Shown: positions 11,919-37,892 of the stretch, piece by piece
Numbering within the stretch: position 1 is the stretch's first letter
Layout of the letters: each line of letters starts with the position of its first letter
Source: Amia ocellicauda
Taxonomy: Eukaryota > Chordata > Actinopteri > Amiiformes > Amiidae
Length of the DNA stretch: 64,000 nucleotides
Direction of reading: 5' to 3'
NCBI RefSeq assembly: GCF_036373705.1
Contig: NC_089853.1
Span: 5,194,905 to 5,258,904, forward strand
Made by a program: the position numbers and the translations under genes
Notes under the pieces: model-generated
Told to the model about the DNA's origin: nothing
The model's input: the letters and a program-made list of their open reading frames with translations, nothing else
Databases searched by the model: none

Positions 11919-14900
11919 CTAATAATGGATCTGGCACTCCTTTTCCCAGTCCACTGGGATGACTGGCTGGGTGATCCGGAGAAAATCTTCCAGGGGACAG
12001 GCCTGGGTGCAGCCTGGCAAACGCAGTGGGAGCAGCTCCCCCCCGGTCTTGTTTTGATGGAACATCTCCACTGTCAATAATCTGCAAACAACCACAGAAA
12101 AAGCCCCTACCAGTCACTCGATTCTGTATGGCCCAACTCAATACATCTGTGTTCAAATATGGATACAGGATGCAACTGCTGTGAAGAGCAATGTTGCTCT
12201 GAGGAGCTGCAGTCCAGGAGAAAGGACATTTATTTTCAAATCGCCACCTGAGGTACACCTGGAAAAGTGTTGGTTGTTCTAAATCAGACCTCTAGTGTGA
12301 AGCCTGGGACACAGCAGCGCATCGCTTCAGATTTGATGCACTGTGGACAGTGTCACACCAACGCGTCTCCCAAGCATCAAAAGGCAGAGATCCCATTTTG
12401 TGCAAAAGAACAATACAATTACAGAACTATATTTTACAGTTAAAAGTGTTTTGGGAAAACTCCACTGAATCCTCAACTGATGAAGAGGAGGTGGAGGAAG
12501 AAGATGAAGAGATTTTGTCAGGGAATCCCTTGCCTAATCAGGGAGGAAATGCAAGCGCAAAGAGTGAGGGATACACTGTATGATCCTGAATATACTGGTG
12601 TAGCGGTGCTCGGCAATTGTTTTCTTTGTACTGAACAAATGCTCTTCACCGCATACCGTGTAAAAAAGTAAGCGTAATCTTGCTTGGATTTGTAATAGAA
12701 AAATACGTAATTTTACAGTCCTAAAAATAAAGAACATTTAATAATCATTTGTACTGTGTGTGTTTAAACATGGGTAATGAAGTGCTTTTTTCTGTATGTG
12801 CATATTTATGTATGCGTGTGCTGTTTTGAACAGGACCCACATCCCGGTTAAAACAAATCTCCAATCGGCGATATATAGAGTTTGCTAAACAACGTATAAA
12901 CTCGGATGGCTGTGGAGATGGGAGATATATTAATTATATTAATTATAGGCTATATAGGGATCAACTTCCTTTCCTAATATGAAGGAGACATTGCATACAA
13001 AAGCCATAGCCAACTATGAAAACCAGTGATGATGATGATGATTCTAATTATAAACTACTTAATACATCTGTGCGATAATGTACAACATCATAGTGGTCAC
13101 ATTACTCGGGATTGGACTGCCATTGGTCCAGAGACGCGTGGCTCTCAAGTGCCACATCAAAAATCGCTCTGGGAGAAATCTGACGCGATGCGACACGCTG
13201 GTGTGTCTCTGTCCATAGACAAACATATTCAGAATTGAGGTGAGGTGAAGCGACACGATGCACTGGTGTGTCCTGGGATCCAGGGTGTAGTGAACAGTTG
13301 ACCCTCGCCACCGCAACCCATAGACAGACACACACCTGGAGCCGACACTGGCACACTCACCCGTAATCGTCCTCATACAACTCAAAAATGTGGCAGGTGG
13401 CGTACGGGGGAGGTTTTCTTTGGTAAACGTCCAGTGCTGACTGCAGGGCCACAATCGTGGTGTCGTGCTGGGGAGGAAACAGAGCAGGGGAGAGCACTCT
13501 CATGAGTTTGCCATGTAGGTTGGGGTTGGTGGTGCGCATTCATAGGTTAGTTTAGCTGCCAGTATCCCTCCCTGATTAACAAAATCAGTTAGCAAAGGCA
13601 TTTCAATAAACAAAAAGCCCCAGCATATTCATACATTACAGGCAAACTATAACATCTACCCTATTAGAGATGCTTATTGAACTACATACCTCTAAAGATA
13701 TAGTCATTAATGTAAAAGTGGTGTGTGGAGGGCTGGGAGCTCTGATAACTCATAGGAGTAATGTCCGACAACTTGTACGTTTCCCTACAAAGATACGCAG
13801 GGTCAGAGAGCCCACTGCAGTAAAGCACTGAACCATCGACAAGAAGGACTCACCGCTGAGTAAACCAACATCTTCAGAGAAGAATTGTCAGCCGTGTCTG
13901 ATATATTTTTCAATATATGACCAAGGAGTAAGCCTATAATAGGAAACAACATAAGAAAGTTACAGAACAGCTATAAGGCTTAATTTCTGTAAACAAAAAT
14001 GTCCTACATCCCATTAAAGCAAGTCAAATATGCTACATCAACTACATACCAGAGGTAGGGGCTGAAAGCCAAAAATCTGACGAGAGACACTTATGATTTA
14101 TGTCTGTTACAATCGATACTGAAAATGATGCTTTGGTGCTTTATTTCCGAAGAATCAAAAACAACCAGAGCTGATAGACATGGCACCTTGACGCAAGTCT
14201 TCTCACCTCCCTGAAGACGGGACTTCATCTTTGTATCAAAGACTCTGAACAGCAGTTCGTAGCTGAACTGACTCAGCTTTGACAATTTGTCCATCATGGC
14301 GTCAGTCAACCAATCGGGTGTTTCCTTACCGTGTTGCCTCTGTAGAAATAAGACTGCACATGACCCAAGCACAGAGAGAATCCCTCGCATACCTCTAGCA
14401 GACACCAAGCAACAATGTAAGTTACATGAAGCGACAACTTTTAGTCCTACAGTAAAACCCAGCAACAATGAGTAGCAGTGCAGCAGCATTGCCTGTCAGT
14501 AATTCGACTTTTTCTTGAAGAGAAATAGTGTAATGATCCCCGTGAACCTGAAGGAAAAACAACTGTCACTTCCTAGTGCTTTAACACCTAAATAACTGAA
14601 TCAACTGTAAGGCTCACTTCACAGAAGAGAGTATCGTGGATCTGCCAGACGTTGTCAATAGAGAGGTTATTTGCTCCAGTGTAGTTCATCAGCTCGTTAA
14701 GAAAATCCTGAAGCACAAGAAGAATGAGAGTTAAATTGAGCCAAAAAGCAGCGCTAGTGTTTTAATATCTTAAAAAGATTGGATAAAACCGGCACATACT
14801 TCATTATCATTAGCCACGCTCAAATATTCATCGGTTTGTTTAGTTTCATTTCTCAGGTTCTCAAACAAAGGGCAGCCTGCCAGTGGGAAGAACAGCAGCT

Positions 14901-17900
14901 GAAACAAAGGGAAGAGCGTTGAATTTCCATAGGGAGCTTTTGTATTGTTCACATGCAGTGACATACAGACGGGTGACAAATTAAAGGAAAAACCTGAATA
15001 AATGAGTGGGGAAACATAACGAATGAAGATGCCTCCAAACAGGTGCACTGCATGATACAATTAAGCATTTAACATCCTATCATGATCTGTGGCATGTATA
15101 CAAATGCTGAGCAGGCCCAGCTGACCTCGATTTTGGATCAAGATGGCAAGAGGAAAGGATCTCAGTGACTTTGAAAGAGGGGTCATTACTGGGGCATGAA
15201 TGGAAGGAGCTTCAGTCACACAGACGCTCAACTGGCTCGTGTTTCAATAGGAACAGTGACTGAAGTTACATCTGCATTTAGATCTATGGGAAAGACATCA
15301 GTAAATAGGGTTGGAAACTGTGGTGGAAAGCACACATTCGATGACCGTGATACTCGTGCATTACTGCGATATGAAAGGAACAACAGAAGAGCAAGTCTTT
15401 CCCAGGTGAGTGAGAATGTCAATGCAGGACACGATCAGACTGTCAGCAAGAAGAGCCCGTCAAGAACTACACAGAGAGGGATATTATACTAGAGTTGCAG
15501 TGCATAAACCCCTCATTATAAAAACAAATGCACATTTGAGAGTTCAGTGGTTCAAAACCCATTGGCACTGGTCTACAGAGATGTGAAACAAAGTGATCTG
15601 GTCAGATGAGTCATCCTTCACCATATTCTCATCAAGGGGGCATGTGTGGGACACCAAGAGAATGGGACAGGCCTGACTGCTGGACCCCTACAGTGAGGGG
15701 GTCCGGAGGCTCTGTTGTGCTGTGGGGGGCATTACCCTGGCATGGTTTGGGTCCACTTGTCCCCTTAGAGGGAAGGGTCACTTGCAAATCATGACAAAGT
15801 TATTCTGAGTGATCACCTTTATCCTATGGTGACACATTTCTCTCCTGATGGGAGTGTCTATTCCAGGATGACAATGCCCCATCCACAGAGCATGAGGGGT
15901 CACTGAATGGTCTGATGAGTATGAAAATGATGTGAATCATATGCTATGGCCATCACAGTCACCAGATCTCAACCCAATTGAACACCTATGGGAGATTGTG
16001 GACCGACATGTTAGACAGCGCTCTCCACCACCGTCATCAAAACCCCAAATGAGGGAATATCTTTTGGAAGAATGGTGTTCATCCCTCCAGTAGAGTTCAG
16101 AGCCAAGAGCATTGAAGCTGTTCTGGTGGCTCATGGTGCCCAACACCTTACTGAGACACTTTATGTTGGTTTTTCCTTTAATTTGTCACCTGTGCATATG
16201 CTGAGATACTTGTTAAATGTAGGGGATAGATAAAGTGTGAGAAGCATGCTATATATATATATATATATACACTCACCTAAAGGATTATTAGGAACACCTG
16301 TTCAATTTCTCATTAATGCAATTATCTAACCAACCAATCACATGGCAGTTGCTTCAATGCATTTAGGGGTGTGGTCCTGGTCAAGACAATCTCCTGAACT
16401 CCAAACTGAATGTCTGAATGGCAAAGAAAGGTGATTTAAGCAATTTTGAGCGTGGCATGGTTGTTGGTGCCAGACGGGCCGGTCTGAGTATTTCACAATC
16501 TGCTCAGTTACTGGGATTTTCACACACAACCATTTCTAGGGTTTACAAAGAATGGTGTGAAAAGGGAAAAACATCCAGTATGCGGCAGTCCTGTGGGCGA
16601 AAATGCCTTGTTGATGCTAGAGGTCAGAGGAGAATGGGCCGACTGATTCAAGCAGATAGAAGAGCAACTTTGACTGAAATAACCACTCGTTACAACCGAG
16701 GTATGCAGCAAAGCATTTGTGAAGCCACAACACGTACAACCTTGAGGCGGATGGGCTACAACAGCAGAAGACCCCACCGGGTACCACTCATCTCCACTAC
16801 AAATAGGAAAAAGAGGCTACAATTTGCACAAGCTCACCAAAATTGGACAGTTGAAGACTGGAAAAATGTTGCCTGGTCTGATGAGTCTCGATTTCTGTTG
16901 AGACATTCAGATGGTAGAGTCAGAATTTGGCGTAAACAGAATGAGAACATGGATCCATCATGCCTTGTTACCACTGTGCAGGCTGGTGGTGGTGGTGTAA
17001 TGGTGTGGGGGATGTTTTCTTGGCACACTTTAGGCCCCTTAGTGCCAATTGGGCATCGTTTAAATGCCACGGCCTACCTGAGCATTGTTTCTGACCATGT
17101 CCATCCCTTTATGACCACCATGTACCCATCCTCTGATGGCTACTTCCAGCAGGATAATGCACCATGTCACAAAGGTCGAATCATTTCAAATTGGTTTCTT
17201 GAACATGACAATGAGTTCACTGTACTAAACTGGCCCCCACAGTCACCAGATCTCAACCCAATAGAGCATCTTTGGGATGTGGTGGAACGGGAGCTTCGTG
17301 CCCTGGATGTGCATCCCACAAATCTCCATCAACTGCAAGATGCTATCCTATCAATATGGGCCAACATTTCTAAAGAATGCTTTCAGCACCTTGTTGAATC
17401 AATGCCACGTAGAATTAAGGCAGTTCTGAAGGCGAAAGGGGGTCAAACACAGTATTAGTATGGTGTTCCTAATAATCCTTTAGGTGAGTGTACACCAATC
17501 AGCAATAACATTAAGACCACTGACAGGTGAAGTGAATAACACTGATAATCTCGTTATCATGGCACCTGTCACTGAGTGGGATATATTAGGCAGCAAGTGA
17601 ACATTTTGTCCTCAAAGTTGATGTGTTAGAAGCAGGAAAAATGGGCAGCGTAAGGATCTGAGCCACTTTGACAAGGGCCAGATTGTGATGGCTAGACGAC
17701 TGGGTCAGAGCATCTCCAAAACTGCAGCTCTTGTGGGGTGTTCCCGGTCTGCAGTGGTCAGTACCTATCAAAAGTGGTCCAAGGAAGGAAAAGCGCTGAA
17801 CCGGCGACAGGGTCATGTGCGGCCAAGGCTCATTGATGCACGTGGGGAGCGAAGGCTGGCCCGTGTGGTCCGATCCAACAGACGAGCTACTGTAGCTCAA

Positions 17901-19758
17901 ATTGCTGAGAAAGTGAATGCTGGTTCTGATAGAAAGGTGTCAGAACACACAGTGCATCGCAGTTTGTTGCGTATGGAGCTGCGTAGCTGCAGACCAGTCA
18001 GGGTGCCCATGCTGACCCCTGTCCACTGCCGAAAGGGCCTACAATGATGAATCACGAGTTCAAGGTGTTGCCTCCAAATTCTCCAGATCTCAATCCAATC
18101 AAGCACGTGTGGGATGTGCTGGACAAACAAGTCCGATCCATGGAGGCCCCACCTCCCAACTTAAAGGACAGGACTTAAAGGATCTGCTGCTGACGTCTTG
18201 GTGCCAGATACCACAGCACACCTTCAGAGGTCTAGTGGAGTCCATGCCTCGACGGGTCAGGGCTGTTTTGGCGGCAAAAGGGGGACCTACACAATATTAG
18301 GCAGGTGGTCATAATGCTATGGCTGATCGGTGTATATACACACACACACACACGATCGGCAAAGCAATGAGGTATGAGGTATGAGGTAATGAGGTAGAAA
18401 CATTGGACAATAATACCTTCAAACCAAAAGCTTATATTTTATCTCTTAATTGAGTGAGTTCAGTATTACCTTTTTGGGTGCAATGTGCACAGGAATGGGC
18501 TGCCACCTGATGTCATGATGGAAGATTTGATCTTTCGAAGGCAGATACAGGCCTGCTAGATTAGCCTGTGCACTCATCAGAGTCCTGTCATAATCTGTGC
18601 TGTAGACTAAAATCTACAGGTAGGGCAAAAAAAAGTTTGTAATAGACAGTGGTCTTAAAGTTGTACATTATGGGGAGGACTTCCAGTTTTCCTCCAGGAA
18701 CATGAAACTAGGCTTGAGCAATTATATTCATTGTGACATACTGCTTACTATGAATAATAATATTGTGTAACTTAAACAGTAAAAAATTACATTCATGTTT
18801 GTTTTAGACTAGAATAGATTATATGAGAGAGAATGAACAAGTCTAATATCAACCTCATGCATTAATAACAAGTGTTGTTTCAAAGAGGCACTTACCTCTC
18901 TTCGGTTGTAGCTTTCATTGAGAAAGTCATGATAGCGTTTCTTAAGCATCTGCCCCAGGTCAAAATGCTGCTTCATCCCTTTCTGGAAAACATTAGGAAA
19001 AGTCACACAGACCTGAACATGTATAGTGAATAGTTAACGGCAGCTCGGGACACCTCGTGGTTCTCTGGTAACTTGTGCACACGGTCAAGACAATTCCACC
19101 TTCCATTATACATGGTTCATTTTAATACCCACCATGTCCATTAATTTATAGAACCTACTACAAAACTAATAAAGCTCATACAGCCGTTGGTATGCTCTGG
19201 ATATTTGGATCAATAAGATCACATCATCTGCTAAGGTGATGTTCCAAAGATTTGCACAGCACAATGCTCAACAGTGTTGTATTTACTAGGTTATAGCAGC
19301 AGTTTTACACATCCTTCTGATATGAAGACGCGTTGTGTCAGCTATAAGAGGACGGTACCTTTGAGAGCTGACCGAAGCCCTGCGGCCAGGCGCTCTCCTG
19401 GTACGGGTCAGTGGGGTAGGCCTTGATTGGAGAGCGGTCACCGTGTCGATACACCTAGTGACACAAGAGGGACAATGAACTGGGTTAGAGACTAAACGGT
19501 CAGATGACATGATTCACCTCTTTCAGAACAGGCTGACTTGTGTGATAGATATTAAAATAAGTATAAATAAAAGCAACACATTCAGGCAATAAAACAGAGC
19601 TTTAGGTGCCTCTTAGTGCTTTGGCAACAGCATCGAGGTCCTGGTTACGACGTCAAGATCTATGACTTTTCTTCAGTAGAAATACCTAAACATTGACTTA
19701 CCAGGGTGACAAATTTCAGCTTGCTTCTCCCAGCTGCTGTGTGTAAAAAGAAGGACAT
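11919..19758 (-). CDS. acid phosphatase (ACP2-like) copy lacking signal start and membrane anchor
   Basis: Histidine acid phosphatase of the lysosomal/prostatic family. Exons, 5' to 3' on the minus strand: 19736-19702 ([11 protein letters not shown]), 19454-19359 ([13 protein letters not shown], the RHGxRxP catalytic motif), 18982-18896, 18613-18470 ([16 protein letters not shown]), 14898-14800, 14707-14618, 14339-14207, 13933-13854, 13467-13361 (HDTTIVALQ, the HD proton donor) and 12081-11919. All are open, phases agree, and the Cys residues around [12 protein letters not shown] and ECQI are present. Exon sizes match the complete ACP2 at 41.7-50.0 kb (96, 87, 99, 90, 133 and 107 bases in both). 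It differs in two ways. The last exon stops after ECQIHY, so there is no transmembrane segment or lysosomal tail. Upstream of [12 protein letters not shown] the original exon 1 is cut off at the edge of the duplicated prothrombin block; an ATG at 19758-19756 gives only a short, weak leader. See the finding on possible fusion to prothrombin Gla exons. Confidence 0.85.
12082..13360 (-). other. last intron of the acp2-like gene
   Basis: This lies between exons 13467-13361 and 12081-11919. It contains a short acidic frame at 12350-12583 (+) and a gat repeat near 13028, but nothing I can support as a gene or known repeat. Confidence 0.6.
14970..16192 (+). mobile_element. degenerate Tc1-like transposon
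   Basis: The ends are inverted repeats: gggtgacaaattaaaggaa at 14971 and its complement ending near 16192. The inside reads, with several stops and frame shifts, as a Tc1-type transposase (KDLSDFERG near 15150, [20 protein letters not shown] near 15700, [14 protein letters not shown] near 15960). It is inactive. It lies in the 3.6-kb intron of the acp2-like gene, in the opposite orientation. Confidence 0.8.
16270..17490 (+). mobile_element. intact Tc1/mariner (DD36E) transposon with perfect TIRs
   Basis: A 1221-bp element with perfect 29-bp terminal inverted repeats (cactcacctaaaggattatt at 16270, complement ending 17490), flanked by TA on both sides. One uninterrupted transposase frame fills it. 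The left TA lies in an (AT)n tract; the right TA is also the end of the next transposon. Intact TIRs, TSD and frame suggest a recent insertion. Confidence 0.9.
16418..17458 (+). CDS. Tc1/mariner transposase, DD36E type, 346 aa
   Basis: Cut-and-paste transposase. It has an N-terminal paired-like helix-turn-helix DNA-binding region (about residues 5-120, with [20 protein letters not shown] as a typical helix-turn-helix) and a C-terminal DDE catalytic domain. Catalytic residues as I read them are D155 (WSDES), D246 (QQDNAPCH) and E283 ([10 protein letters not shown]). That places 36 residues between the second D and the E, against 34 in classic Tc1. This spacing is that of the DD36E (Incomer) family known from vertebrates. 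No stop or frameshift is present, so the protein could be active. The start ATG lies 148 bases inside the left end and the stop 32 bases from the right end. Confidence 0.9.
   Translation: MAKKGDLSNFERGMVVGARRAGLSISQSAQLLGFSHTTISRVYKEWCEKGKTSSMRQSCGRKCLVDARGQRRMGRLIQADRRATLTEITTRYNRGMQQSICEATTRTTLRRMGYNSRRPHRVPLISTTNRKKRLQFAQAHQNWTVEDWKNVAWSDESRFLLRHSDGRVRIWRKQNENMDPSCLVTTVQAGGGGVMVWGMFSWHTLGPLVPIGHRLNATAYLSIVSDHVHPFMTTMYPSSDGYFQQDNAPCHKGRIISNWFLEHDNEFTVLNWPPQSPDLNPIEHLWDVVERELRALDVHPTNLHQLQDAILSIWANISKECFQHLVESMPRRIKAVLKAKGGQTQY
17493..18332 (+). mobile_element. internally deleted Tc1-like transposon
   Basis: The ends caccaatcagcaataacatt and, complemented, tggtcataatgctatggctg form imperfect inverted repeats flanked by TA. 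Two transposase remnants remain: 17685-18047 (N-terminal DNA-binding part) and 18109-18300 (C-terminal end, [19 protein letters not shown]). The catalytic centre between them is missing. It is non-autonomous and abuts the intact DD36E element. Confidence 0.85.
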
Positions 19759-20501
19759 GACAGACATATTTTGAACATATAAATCTATGGATTACAGACT
19801 AACATACATGTCATTTGCTTTGTCAAGGTTTGCCATGCTTTGTATTATGGTTTATTATACCTTTATGCTTTATCACAATTTAATGGTTTTACAGGATCAA
19901 ATACAATAATGTTTTATCTGAGTATTTAGTTGCAGTGCAATCTCTTGATTACAGTGGCAATAATAAAAACAAACACAAATACCGTCCAAACAATTCCTCA
20001 GTGGCTGTATATTCGTCTTGGTTCGTTTTCCTACATTAGCGTTACAGGCTGGAAAAAAGGAAAATAAATGGAAGTGGAAGAGTTAACACACAATACATTC
20101 TGCACAGGATGGCTCCTGCTGAAGGTCCGGTCTTTGAGAGAGGTCACTCCTTCAAACGTTAATTATAAATCACATGTGAGAAACCAGCCAATCATACAGC
20201 AGCATTCCCAAACATTCCTGAACCTCCTACCTTGTGTATCAATGTCATCCCGTGCAGAGAATCATCAGGATTTATAAAATGTGGGGCAATTTCACATGAT
20301 TTACATTTGTTTTTAATAGTTTTGTAACATTTAACCAGCATGAAAACACAACACAGATCAACTCTGTAGGTCAGAACCAGCGGATCCTGGACCAAAACAT
20401 TTTCACATGGAGAGAAAGGTTGATTGGTAAATTTAATGAAAATGCAGATTTTCTTTTTCACTGTTAACCTATTTGTGTGTCTAATCTGCACGTGTGGTTT
20501 A

Positions 20502-20698
20502 TATGGCAAGCCAAAGTGTCATTTAGAGATATCTCAAAATACAATTCAAGATATCTTAAATTGAATTTGAGATATTTTAAATTGAATTTGAGATATCTTA
20601 AATTCAATTTCAGATATCTGAAATAGAACAGGACGTCAATTCAAGATATCTTGAATTGTATTTTGAGATATCTCTAAATGACAATTTGGCTTGCCATA
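20502..20698. mobile_element. palindromic MITE
   Basis: The outer arms tatggcaagccaaa and tttggcttgccata are inverted repeats. The inside is a near-perfect palindrome built from a gatatct/aattgaatttgag unit, about 195 bp in all. It is absent from the corresponding place in duplication copy B (near 36070), so it was inserted in copy A or lost from copy B. Confidence 0.75.
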
Positions 20699-21129
20699 GA
20701 TTTATACTAAGTTATTTTATTAGATTTTTTTCTTAATAATTGTATAAATGTTAATTATTGTACATTAATTATTGTTTGAGGGTAAAATGTATCTTTACCC
20801 ACCAATGTATTTATATTTGTGTTGTCAGATTTTTCTACCCTAATTTTGAACTCAAGTCTTTGAGTCAAGCCCAGACCAGAATGTGTGGCTATTTATCGGT
20901 TTGTGGTGGTGCTTGTAAGCATTAACTGTGTATGTCTGACCAGATTGTGTGTATGATTGGGTCTGGGTATTTATTTACTGAAAAGTACATTGTAAACCAA
21001 TATATATTTTCTCTTTCTCTCTCTAACAAAGGACTGCTAGATTTTAATACACAGTATCAATTATACACTGGCACACATTTCTGATCATCCAGAGTGTATA
21101 GAAGCAAATCTTGTGGTAATGCTAGTTAT

Positions 21130-21440
21130 CATTTGATTGATAAAAGCAGAGTAAACAGGGGTTTAACAATTTAATGGAGTAACAGAGTTAACACTGGTGA
21201 GAGTAGTGCAGTGTTAAATAAAATAAAATAAACACTTATAAGAGTTGCTTATTTAACTCCCTGAGAGCAGAACGTTTCATGTAATGTAATAACGTTTCAC
21301 TGAGGCAGTGTAAAAATGCCAACTCTGTTGAAAGTGTTAATTTTACTTGGTGAGTGTGGATTATATAAACACTTTTTTAGAGTTAATTTTAACACTGTTG
21401 GAGTTAATTAAACACTGGTGAATTTACTGTGTTGTATAAG
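21130..21440. repeat. degenerate repeat rich in gttaacactg / gagttaat units
   Basis: Direct and inverted copies of short motifs (gttaacactgg, cagtgttaaa, gagttaattttaacactg) recur through this segment. It is a MITE-like or satellite-like repeat, specific to copy A of the duplication. Confidence 0.5.
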
Positions 21441-21833
21441 ATATGTTATTTGCAGTTTGTGCAGCCAGCACTCTCCTCTTTCCCCAACTGCTTGAGGTGA
21501 TATCTTTCATACAATTAGAGACACCTTTAACACAACCTATTATCTTATGAACCATGACCTATTCAGTCCGTATTCATATAGTCTTGGAAGGATCATCACC
21601 TGATCAATAATGTAACAATAGCAGCAATGTCAGCAGACAGACACGTGTATATTACAGAATTCATTTCAGGTTGTGGCAGTCAGTATTACACATGACATTC
21701 ATTGGCGATATCAGGAAGAGAAACACAAGAACTGTTGCCAGCTCCTCTCATTTGCACTTTGCACCAGGTTCAATAGCAGGCATTTAGAGTTCATTACAGA
21801 ATGACATACATTTTTACTTAAACAAACCCTTAC

Positions 21834-23398
21834 CCACGTATCTCTTCCAAAAGACTTCCTGAATAAGAAAAGAGAAGAAGAGACGAGTAAATGCTAATGA
21901 AGCTTAACCACAAATCAGTGTGGCCAACACTGGGCAATGGTCCAGCACTGGGACATTTCACATATTTCAGACAAGAGCTGGGAAAGATTAAAATGGCATT
22001 TGGACATAAATCTAGGTGTGACTCAAAAGTCAAGCATGAAATAGACTGCCTTTAGAGCAGGGGTCTCAAACTCAGTTCCTGGAGGGCCGTGTGTGATGCT
22101 GGTTTTCGTTCCAAGTCCTCAGTTACATAATTTGTCAATTTCACATATTTATAAAATATATTGCGAGGCATTTTACGGTTGATGGTCTAAAAGTGCATTT
22201 GATTCATGGTACAGTTGCTTATAAAATATCCCAGGGCCTGGATAGGTGTTTAAATCTGTCTAGCTAATTAAACAATTAGACCAATTAAGTAATCGAGGAC
22301 TCGGTTAGAATGAAAACCAGCATCACACACACGGCCCTCCAGGAAATGAGTTTAAGACCACTGGTTTAGAGAGTCTGTCCAAATGCGATAGTATCTCCAT
22401 CATTACAGGAGTGCCCTGGTTTGTACAGATTTGAAATTTTGTTTTTGCAAAATACAGAATGGTTATGGAAAGGTAAGCGTTCACAAAATATTGTTTGATC
22501 CACTATGTACCACTCTCCCGAGGGAAATGGACAGAGTTTGAAGGTTTGAAGGTGTAGTCTGACTGTCCATGAAATACTGTAGATGATGGTCTGCTACTAC
22601 TCACGGTCTTCCCCACGTCCTCAAAGACCTCCTGGGCTTCCTCGTGGTCACAGATCTCCTCCAGACATTCTCGTTCCAGATTCCCTGGCTTCATCTCCTC
22701 CAAAAATGAATTTGCGCGGCGCACACGGTTCAAAACCGTTGAGGCTATTTTGCTGTCAAGAAATACTAAGAGCAACCCAATCATGAAATACATTTTCACA
22801 GAAAAAAACCCTCTAAATTTTATTATACATCAACACATGTATTTAGTTAGTTCCTGCTTAGATTTATTTTTTGTGGCGTTAGATTCAAGGCTATCTGGGT
22901 TCCTTAATCTCTAGCAAGTTGAGTTTTGCGAATGCCACAGTGTCGTTGGTGAACAGAGAATGAAAGACAAATGCGATTATGGTTTGACCTGATGAATCTC
23001 AAAATCAAAATCTCAGAATCAAAAGTGTCTGTCCAGGAGCCAGGACTGGGTGCCATGATTGAAGCTGATTTTTGTTTTTTTTGCTTTTTGTGCTTAAAAA
23101 AACAAAAACAAAAAACACTAAATCAGCAAGATGTAGGAGACAAATATTGTGAATTTTACAATCAATATTGAACAGAACAGTAGTCTTGCAGTTGAAAAAG
23201 TAATTTGATTACTGAATGTTTCTCCCATTCTTTTTTCAGACTTTCAACCAGATAACAAAAATCGATCTTGATATAATTATATATATAAATTGGACTATGG
23301 AAGAGGGAAATATTTTTCTTACCATTTTTACAGACAGATATCTGGATTAAAGATGAAAAGAGAAAGATGAGAAATACAGCTGCTGTGATTCCACCCAT
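21834..23398 (-). CDS. duplicated prothrombin 5' exons (signal, propeptide, Gla)
   Basis: Three exons: 23398-23323 ([16 protein letters not shown], a clear signal peptide), 22744-22605 (propeptide STVLNRVRR, then the Gla domain [17 protein letters not shown]) and 21858-21834 (EVFWKRYV, the aromatic stack). Lengths 76, 140 and 25 bases equal those of the complete F2. All ten Gla-position glutamates (6, 7, 14, 16, 19, 20, 25, 26, 29, 32) and the C17-C22 pair are present, as is the RVRR processing site. No kringle or protease exon follows on this side. The next same-strand exons belong to the acp2-like gene, whose first acceptor is in the matching phase. It is either a pseudogene fragment or the 5' half of a fusion gene. 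Confidence 0.85.
22058..22363. mobile_element. hAT-type MITE (copy A)
   Basis: The terminal inverted repeats (caggggtctcaaactcagtt and its near-complement ending ccactg) are flanked by an 8-bp near-duplication, ctttagag / gtttagag, as hAT elements make. It lies in the intron between the Gla exon and exon 3, and the same element at 36723-36858 has lost its middle. Confidence 0.75.
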
Positions 23399-23494
23399 TG
23401 CTGCTGATGCCTGGAGGACAAGTCAGGAGAAAACTAATCTCTCCCCCTCCAAAAAAAAAAAAAAAACACACACACACAAATCAAAGATCTCCTG

Positions 23495-23507
23495 GTTAAT
23501 ATTGAAC
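23495..23507. promoter_or_regulatory. HNF1-like site upstream of duplicated F2 start
   Basis: gttaatattgaac matches the HNF1 half-palindrome pattern (gttaatnattaac) at 11 of 13 positions, about 100 bases upstream of the signal-peptide ATG at 23398. HNF1 drives liver expression of prothrombin in mammals. It is identical in the F2 copy at 37984-37996. Confidence 0.4.
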
Positions 23508-24142
23508 CCAGAGTGGAGAGGAGACTGTGTCACAACTCGTCAGGGCCACTGCTCCCTCCCTTCCCTTAAGGTCCTCATGTCCATACTGTACCACAGCACT
23601 TTGATCAGTTATCTAAAGCCGTATGCAGTGTATTACAATTGTGAAGTCCATATTCACTATTATATACTATAAATGCTGAAGCACCACATGTATGAAGGAA
23701 TTGCTAGAAACCTTTGATATAACTTTAGAAATATAATTATTACAGCCCAGGCTGATGACTTTACTGTAATGTTTTTCTGGATCTTAATGTAATGAATGGG
23801 CCAAAAAGAAATTAAGTTTAAAAAGCATTCCCATGGATCCTGAGGCTGGGAGTTTGGCACAGCTGCTCAGGGGTTAGGAGACAACACCTTGCAACAAAAT
23901 TGTAATTTGTTTTTGAAAAAGAAAAGAAGAACATCACAGGTTAAACTCAATGTTTGCGGAGAACTGCAGCTCCAAACAGGTATGCTTATTTATTCTCCTG
24001 CAGCTCCTGCCTGACTAAATATTTGTGTGCAAATATTGAGAGACTGTTGAGGGGGAGGACCCAACGTTTTATAACCATTTCAGCAAAACACCAGCAAAAA
24101 AAATATTATTAATGATACAAATCCTGACATCCTAGACCCCGC

Positions 24143-24640
24143 TCACGTTCCCGTCTCGATCTCCACAGTCTCTGCCACCGAGCTCAGCCCCTTGTCCTCC
24201 TGAAGGATCACCACGCTGCCGTGCGACTTCTCCTCCGCCACGATGATGCACTTGGAGTCATGCGTGTCTTGGATGATCATCTCGATGATCTCCTCGTTCA
24301 GCTGGATGTGGCCCCCGGGCTGGCCGTGCGCGGTCCGGGCCAGCTCGTCCGAGGAGCCCACCGCCCCGTGGAGGACGTGCTCGGCTCCGAACGCCACGCT
24401 GTTCTGGAACGGGGCAGCGGCTCTGATCACCACCTGTCTCTCGTCAGCGCCGGGCCCCATCGCCACGGCCTCGATAGCGTGCATGTACACTACGGACTGC
24501 TCCTTGGGTGGGGCGGTGCTGTCCTTCTGGTCAGAGCCTCGCCGTTGTAGGGCTTCCCGCCCGTGTGGATGCGGAGGTGTCCCAGCAGGTTCCCTCTCTG
24601 ACATAAGGTCTTGGTGCAGTGGGCGCAGGGCAGGGGCGAA
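24143..24640 (-). pseudogene. C2H2 zinc-finger gene tail (ZNF408-like by synteny), copy A
   Basis: Minus strand: one C2H2 finger (CAHCTKTLCQRGN ... HLRIHTG) followed by a GC-rich C-terminal tail ending in ETVEIETGT and a stop at 24145-24143. A frame shift separates finger and tail near GKPYNGEAL, and the 5' side is cut off at about 24640 by repeat-like sequence. In human, ZNF408 lies just upstream of F2 in the same orientation, as here. The tail itself I do not recognise, so the name rests on synteny. Confidence 0.55.

Positions 24641-27056: not shown

Positions 27057-37892
<10,836 letters not shown>

Follow-up and report, generated by a model that had tools for sequence, protein, structure and literature searches.

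Can a partial prothrombin gene and the truncated acid phosphatase gene that lies behind it act together as a single gene? The question arises in a 64,000-nucleotide stretch of DNA from Amia ocellicauda (C4:5194905-5258904 in a genome of 988 Mb), hereafter the window, in whose own numbering positions are given unless marked C4. The minus strand of the window carries, in order, a complete acid phosphatase gene, acp2-B (49979-41675), a complete prothrombin gene, F2-B (37892-27057), a partial prothrombin copy, F2-A (~24637-19763), and a second phosphatase gene, acp2-A (19736-11919). F2-A comprises the promoter, exons 1-4 and part of intron 4, and lies on the same strand directly upstream of acp2-A, which is truncated at its 5' end; a preliminary description of this DNA had placed the prothrombin copy upstream of the phosphatase gene in this way, and our gene models agree. 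An open chimeric frame, intact domains and an intact proximal promoter are supported by the analysis. Judged from its sequence, the chimeric gene is credible, and the choice between a working gene and a remnant appears close to even. We assign a probability of about 0.4 to the reading that the locus is a working prothrombin–acid phosphatase fusion gene, transcribed in liver, spliced at 19737 and encoding a secreted, Gla-tethered phosphatase.

The joined frame and its predicted protein

Joining F2-A exons 1-4 to the ten acp2-A exons at consensus GT/AG boundaries gives one open reading frame of 1362 nucleotides (nt) and 453 residues. As exon 4 is in phase 1 at both ends, the frame is likewise open when that exon is skipped (1296 nt, 431 residues). 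The claim that the frame is restored across the join and runs open to the stop codon at 11919 was thus confirmed, with no internal stop, and the proposed product of about 424 residues gives way to these two lengths. The prothrombin copy had been described as having three exons, and a fourth (20048-19983) had been overlooked, which strengthens an observation that is otherwise largely correct. The positions first given for exon 1 (23323-23398; start codon and signal peptide) and exon 3 (21834-21858; end of the Gla module, 3' end in phase 1) hold, but exon 2 (22605-22765; propeptide and Gla domain) begins at 22765 and not at 22744, a start that is 21 nt late and, although in frame, loses part of the propeptide including F-16. 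Exon 4 is open and encodes a small Cys-Cys loop; relative to both other prothrombin copies it carries a 9-nt in-frame insertion that keeps the frame and both cysteines.

The phosphatase part consists of ten coding pieces, all on the minus strand: what is left of the exon 1 coding sequence (19702-19736), exon 2 with the RHGDRSP motif (19359-19454), exons 3 (18896-18982), 4 (18470-18613), 5 (14800-14898), 6 (14618-14707), 7 (14207-14339) and 8 (13854-13933), exon 9 with HDTT (13361-13467), and exon 10, which ends in the stop codon without a membrane tail (11919-12081). An AG precedes each piece, a GT follows the first nine and none has an internal stop. When the two prothrombin heads, with and without exon 4, were each joined to the ten acp2-A exons, only the two joins to exon 1 gave the whole enzyme among the 20 combinations; two joins to exon 8 were also in frame but keep the C-terminal part alone.

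The signal peptide, the propeptide with its RVRR site, the ten Gla-domain glutamates, RHGDRSP and HDTT that had been reported could all be read in the joined translation. With exon 2 corrected, the propeptide keeps the carboxylase docking residues F-16, A-10 and L-6, together with the basic cleavage site RVRR, and the ten glutamates occupy the positions customary for Gla. Pfam detects Gla (PF00594; 1.4e-19, 70.4 bits against a cut-off of 27) and His_Phos_2 (PF00328; 6e-41) on the joined protein and nothing else, the two kringles and the trypsin-like protease being absent. Among PDB entries, its residues 115-450 best match rat prostatic acid phosphatase (1.8e-104) and its residues 17-117 prothrombin (4.9e-19). 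All six catalytic positions tested (R11, H12, R15, R79, H257 and D258) and all six cysteines tested are kept, and the phosphatase part holds seven sequons. Removal of the first 42 residues leaves 411 residues, or 47.6 kDa before sugars.

Promoter, breakpoint and candidate acceptor

The proximal promoter and 5' untranslated region of F2-A (23399-23541, minus strand) differ from those of F2-B at 0 of 138 aligned bases and from those of F2-C, a full third prothrombin gene 0.5 Mb away (~C4:5769870-5777808), at 1 of 138. All three promoter copies contain GGTTCAATATTAACC, presumably an HNF1-like site. The earlier statement that a copy of the F2 promoter precedes the gene is therefore borne out, its HNF1-like site being a putative one.

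Prothrombin homology stops at ~19763, the breakpoint, leaving 19763-19982 of intron 4. In a tblastn search of the window the stretch 19767-19702 aligns at 50% identity (E 0.013) to acp2-B residues 21-42, which span the second half of the signal peptide and the first residues of the mature enzyme, indicating that the breakpoint lies inside the old acp2-A signal peptide. At the DNA level 22 of the last 33 bases of this stretch agree with acp2-B and 17 of the preceding 33; as the latter agreement is weak, homology upstream of the AG rests on the protein alignment and position. The leftover signal-peptide codons of old exon 1 (19737-19767), which begin within the last bases of F2 homology, are pyrimidine-rich and end in the AG that forms the candidate acceptor. 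By these comparisons the predicted acceptor at 19737 is old exon 1 coding sequence exposed by truncation, not an ancestral intron end, and a native acceptor for the phosphatase part was ruled out on the same tblastn and base comparison. Of the pyrimidine-rich acceptor first described, the AG and its fitting phase stand and its native character does not.

The signal peptide of acp2-A, cut at ~19763, is not retained, and the longest hydrophobic run left is of 6 residues. The gene had been said to lack its own signal start and promoter: its signal peptide is indeed cut and the sequence upstream is F2 intron 4, but in-frame ATGs remain at 19767 and 19758, so what was lost is the signal peptide and strictly not every start. 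A search of the window with acp2-B exon 1 (tblastn, best 60 stretches) gave no surviving first half of acp2-A exon 1, the best match apart from acp2-B itself and the exon 1 remnant having an E value of 0.47. The absence of a membrane anchor was upheld, for exon 10 ends without a tail and the same search with acp2-B exon 11 found no tail exon in the window (other best match E 0.062, best 60 stretches). The argument that loss of both signal and tail fits a secreted role is, however, weak, as one and the same breakpoint removed the signal and created the join, and the secreted prostatic acid phosphatase has no membrane tail either.

Splice sites were scored with profiles learnt from 48 acceptors and 49 donors of these genes, many of them from near-identical paralogues, which inflates the scores. 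The candidate acceptor (the AG before 19736) scored 7.21, a moderate value ranking 33 of 49, and the next best AG in the same intron 2.70. Of the 8079 AGs in the window, 191 score at least 7.21. The prothrombin and phosphatase blocks are genuine homologues and no product of chance; the in-frame join, with one phase in three fitting, is not improbable by itself. Since a copy A transcript would find no F2 exon 5 downstream, the acp2-A exons are the next known ones on its way.

If the locus is a working fusion gene, a rearrangement would have set the prothrombin promoter and first four exons onto acp2-A, cutting its exon 1 inside the signal peptide. Liver transcription would begin at the copied promoter, and exon 4 would be joined at the AG at 19737, which scores higher than any other in what is left of the intron. 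The product would be secreted by the prothrombin signal, carboxylated by way of the propeptide and cut at RVRR to release the 411-residue Gla-tethered acid phosphatase. Through its Gla module, which would bind calcium and membranes with phosphatidylserine, an enzyme like prostatic acid phosphatase would be kept at such membranes, where it might, for example, dephosphorylate AMP or lysophospholipids on the surface of activated cells. That the gene has this full function, as a liver-secreted vitamin K-dependent acid phosphatase whose Gla module carries the enzyme to phosphatidylserine-exposing membranes by means of an acceptor born of the rearrangement, seems unlikely to us.

Working gene or remnant

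The two parts may instead be a pair of remnants, acp2-A having been killed by the loss of its start and F2-A being a dead 5' copy, with any fusion transcript incidental. We rate this as somewhat short of an even chance. The frame would then be open because too little time has elapsed and because exons 1-3 were refreshed by conversion with F2-B, and those exons, together with the intervening introns, closely match F2-B, with 0 to 3 differences per block. The rest of the frame, exon 4 plus acp2-A (1100 nt), was put through decay simulations that rest on assumed indel rates, and stayed open by chance with a probability of 0.23-0.82 at 0.2-1% lineage divergence and of only 0.01-0.22 at 1.5-3%. For the full 1362 nt the probabilities were 0.18 at 1%, 0.04 at 2% and 0.006 at 3%.

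Several results weigh against a working fusion gene. At 0.2% lineage divergence the 1100 nt stay open with a probability of 0.75-0.82, so that a young join would be expected to read open in any case, and agreement of phase at the join has a chance of about one in three. The candidate acceptor was coding sequence and is a predicted splice site. The donor of acp2-A exon 2 (AAG|gtaccg) scores 1.04, the lowest of 49, against 8.45 for its acp2-B counterpart, a weakening that suits a dying gene. The donor of F2-A exon 4 (ACG|gtattt) is also weak (4.7), and is identical in F2-B and F2-C. Skipping of exon 4 can therefore be envisaged, but direct splicing of exon 3 to the phosphatase as the main form was rejected, the exon 4 acceptor being strong (18.19) and the exon ends intact.

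acp2-A and acp2-B share 210 of 343 residues, with nonsynonymous divergence (dN) of 0.28 and synonymous divergence (dS) of 0.94-1.07 over 343 codons; these values indicate a phosphatase long under constraint, but the ratio was mostly set before the two genes were joined, and dS approaches saturation. Moreover acp2-A has evolved faster than acp2-B, with 48 against 24 unique changes when human ACP2 is the outgroup (chi2 8.0), 38 against 23 with rat prostatic acid phosphatase (chi2 3.7), and 22 against 11 at the 181 sites where these two outgroups agree. In F2-A exons 1-4, changes found in copy A alone occupy 5 of 319 sites. In noncoding sequence, counted together with its poorly aligned parts, they occupy 32 of 2030. 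Four of the five exonic changes affect the encoded protein, so these exons give no sign of constraint.

Against a pair of remnants stand the catalytic and disulfide residues retained in acp2-A and the block next to the breakpoint, from intron 3b to intron 4b, which looks older, with 16 of 527 sites differing in A alone, some of which B-C conversion may have made to look specific to A, and with the 9-nt insertion. The block comparison left out the repeat stretches 22369-22048, 21443-20331 and 19889-19885. Elsewhere the affinities of copy A change from block to block: in the zinc-finger fragment (24380-24139) A and C differ at 3 of 242 sites and A and B at 27 of 239, whereas in intron 1 A and B differ at 3 of 556 and A and C at 117 of 533, and in intron 3a at 0 of 390 and 93 of 356, respectively. 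These data point to copy A being a mosaic from repeated gene conversion. The signals of the age of the join accordingly conflict: by exons 1-3 it would be recent, by the block next to the breakpoint older. Conversion between B and C also obscures which of the changes are new, so that neither the age of the join nor selection on the fusion can be fixed from this mosaic.

It is improbable that acp2-A is expressed alone from the ATG at 19767 or 19758 as an intracellular or poorly secreted phosphatase, with the prothrombin fragment irrelevant. Two in-frame ATGs do precede the mature enzyme, but the sequence immediately upstream is F2 intron 4 and not an acp2 promoter, and the 6-residue hydrophobic run compares with runs of 13-15 (searched up to 15) in four signals, with a maximal 8-mer hydropathy of 1.97 against 2.65-3.31. 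Misassembly of copy A from reads of the other two prothrombin copies or of a second haplotype is very improbable: copy A is a mosaic, partly F2-C-like and partly F2-B-like, but it has sequence of neither copy (the exon 4 changes, the intron 3 insertions and the join) and sits in a 55.6 Mb contig, and the 112 genome matches listed, with 40 of 328 candidates scored, include no fourth copy.

The surroundings bear on the origin of the copies. F2-C has as its neighbour the 3' end of a zinc-finger gene resembling znf408, which in human lies next to prothrombin, and this probably marks F2-C as the original prothrombin locus. Fragments of the same zinc-finger gene also lie at F2-A and F2-B. In copy A the distal flank (23542-24637, minus strand) holds the 3' end of that gene, here closest to F2-C, and upstream F2 sequence that is missing from F2-B; over 24138-23542 A and C differ at 77 of 572 sites in an alignment that is partly poor. 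Within the 40 kb around F2-C, no acp2-like sequence scored better than E 0.26. Nor was there a second acp2-A copy in the genome, for of 17 matches (25 of 25 candidates scored) 15 on C4 all fall within the window and the two on C7 are perhaps acp3. The flanking genes on the plus strand are, judged by their translations, probably DDB2-like (~10.3-10.6 kb) and AMBRA1-like (~55.7-58.7 kb).

Other features of the window stand apart from the fusion. Near-identical tracts adjoin tracts about 20% diverged (19.8-24.6 kb and 35.4-38.4 kb), as though the three prothrombin copies exchange patches. F2-B (14 exons, 609 residues, minus strand) is near-identical to copy A across exons 1-3 and has an altered activation region: where F2-C reads ELLESYLGSR|VVKGVDAELG, the bar marking the presumed cleavage position, F2-B (31249-31132) is altered and three codons shorter, lacking a normal activation site, and it may be a non-activatable prothrombin paralogue. 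F2-B and F2-C differ by a dN of 0.046-0.049 and a dS of 0.069-0.078, with 62 of 87 coding differences in exons 9, 10 and 12. acp2-B, the paralogue used for comparison, has 11 exons, a signal peptide and a membrane tail; its exon 2 (45353-45258) agrees with that of acp2-A (19454-19359) at 88 of 96 bases, as against ~55-78% in the other eight shared exons, which suggests conversion of exon 2 or strong constraint. A repeat in acp2-A intron 4 (16264-17492) has 99.5% identity over 1229 bases to one ~12 kb from F2-C and is thus probably a young mobile element. F2 intron 2 holds a short element with inverted ends (22043-22376 and 36708-36871), which F2-C lacks and which is shorter in F2-B than in copy A; it accounts for most of at least 112 genome matches (a lower bound, 40 of 328 candidates scored). 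Scans for tRNA genes and tandem repeats added nothing.

Comparison with known systems

With prothrombin the fusion shares direct copies of the promoter, signal peptide, propeptide, Gla domain and exon 4 loop, and solved prothrombin chains were matched; it differs in lacking the kringles and protease, its catalytic part being a phosphatase. With ACP2 and ACP3 it shares the catalytic residues and disulfides, and the exon structure of acp2-A parallels that of acp2-B. Like secreted ACP3 (prostatic acid phosphatase), acp2-A ends without a membrane tail. Unlike both, its own signal peptide was cut away and a Gla module would precede the enzyme.

If expressed, the locus would encode a Gla protein whose catalytic part is a phosphatase, and would show how a single step can transfer a membrane-targeting module to a new enzyme and how DNA coding for a signal peptide can come to serve as a splice acceptor. 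If not expressed, it nevertheless illustrates clearly how three prothrombin copies have exchanged sequence, and one of these is apparently not activatable in the usual way.

A membrane-binding Gla domain is common to factors VII, IX and X, proteins C, S and Z and the PRRG family, and the coagulation proteases likewise pair Gla with an enzyme. Domains described as accompanying Gla are EGF, kringle, trypsin or laminin G domains (PMC9643190), and the word phosphatase is absent from the main text of that paper. No Gla-phosphatase was found among the titles and abstract openings listed in searches of open-licence literature, by which its absence from print is not established. The fusion here is predicted from DNA sequence, unlike chimeric genes formed by tandem duplication and exon shuffling (e.g., PMC5460883), with which it nevertheless shares a partial duplicate that gives its promoter and 5' exons to a neighbour. 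Prostatic acid phosphatase is described as an ectonucleotidase (PMC2617779), and a Gla-anchored version, if real, could therefore make adenosine at clotting surfaces.

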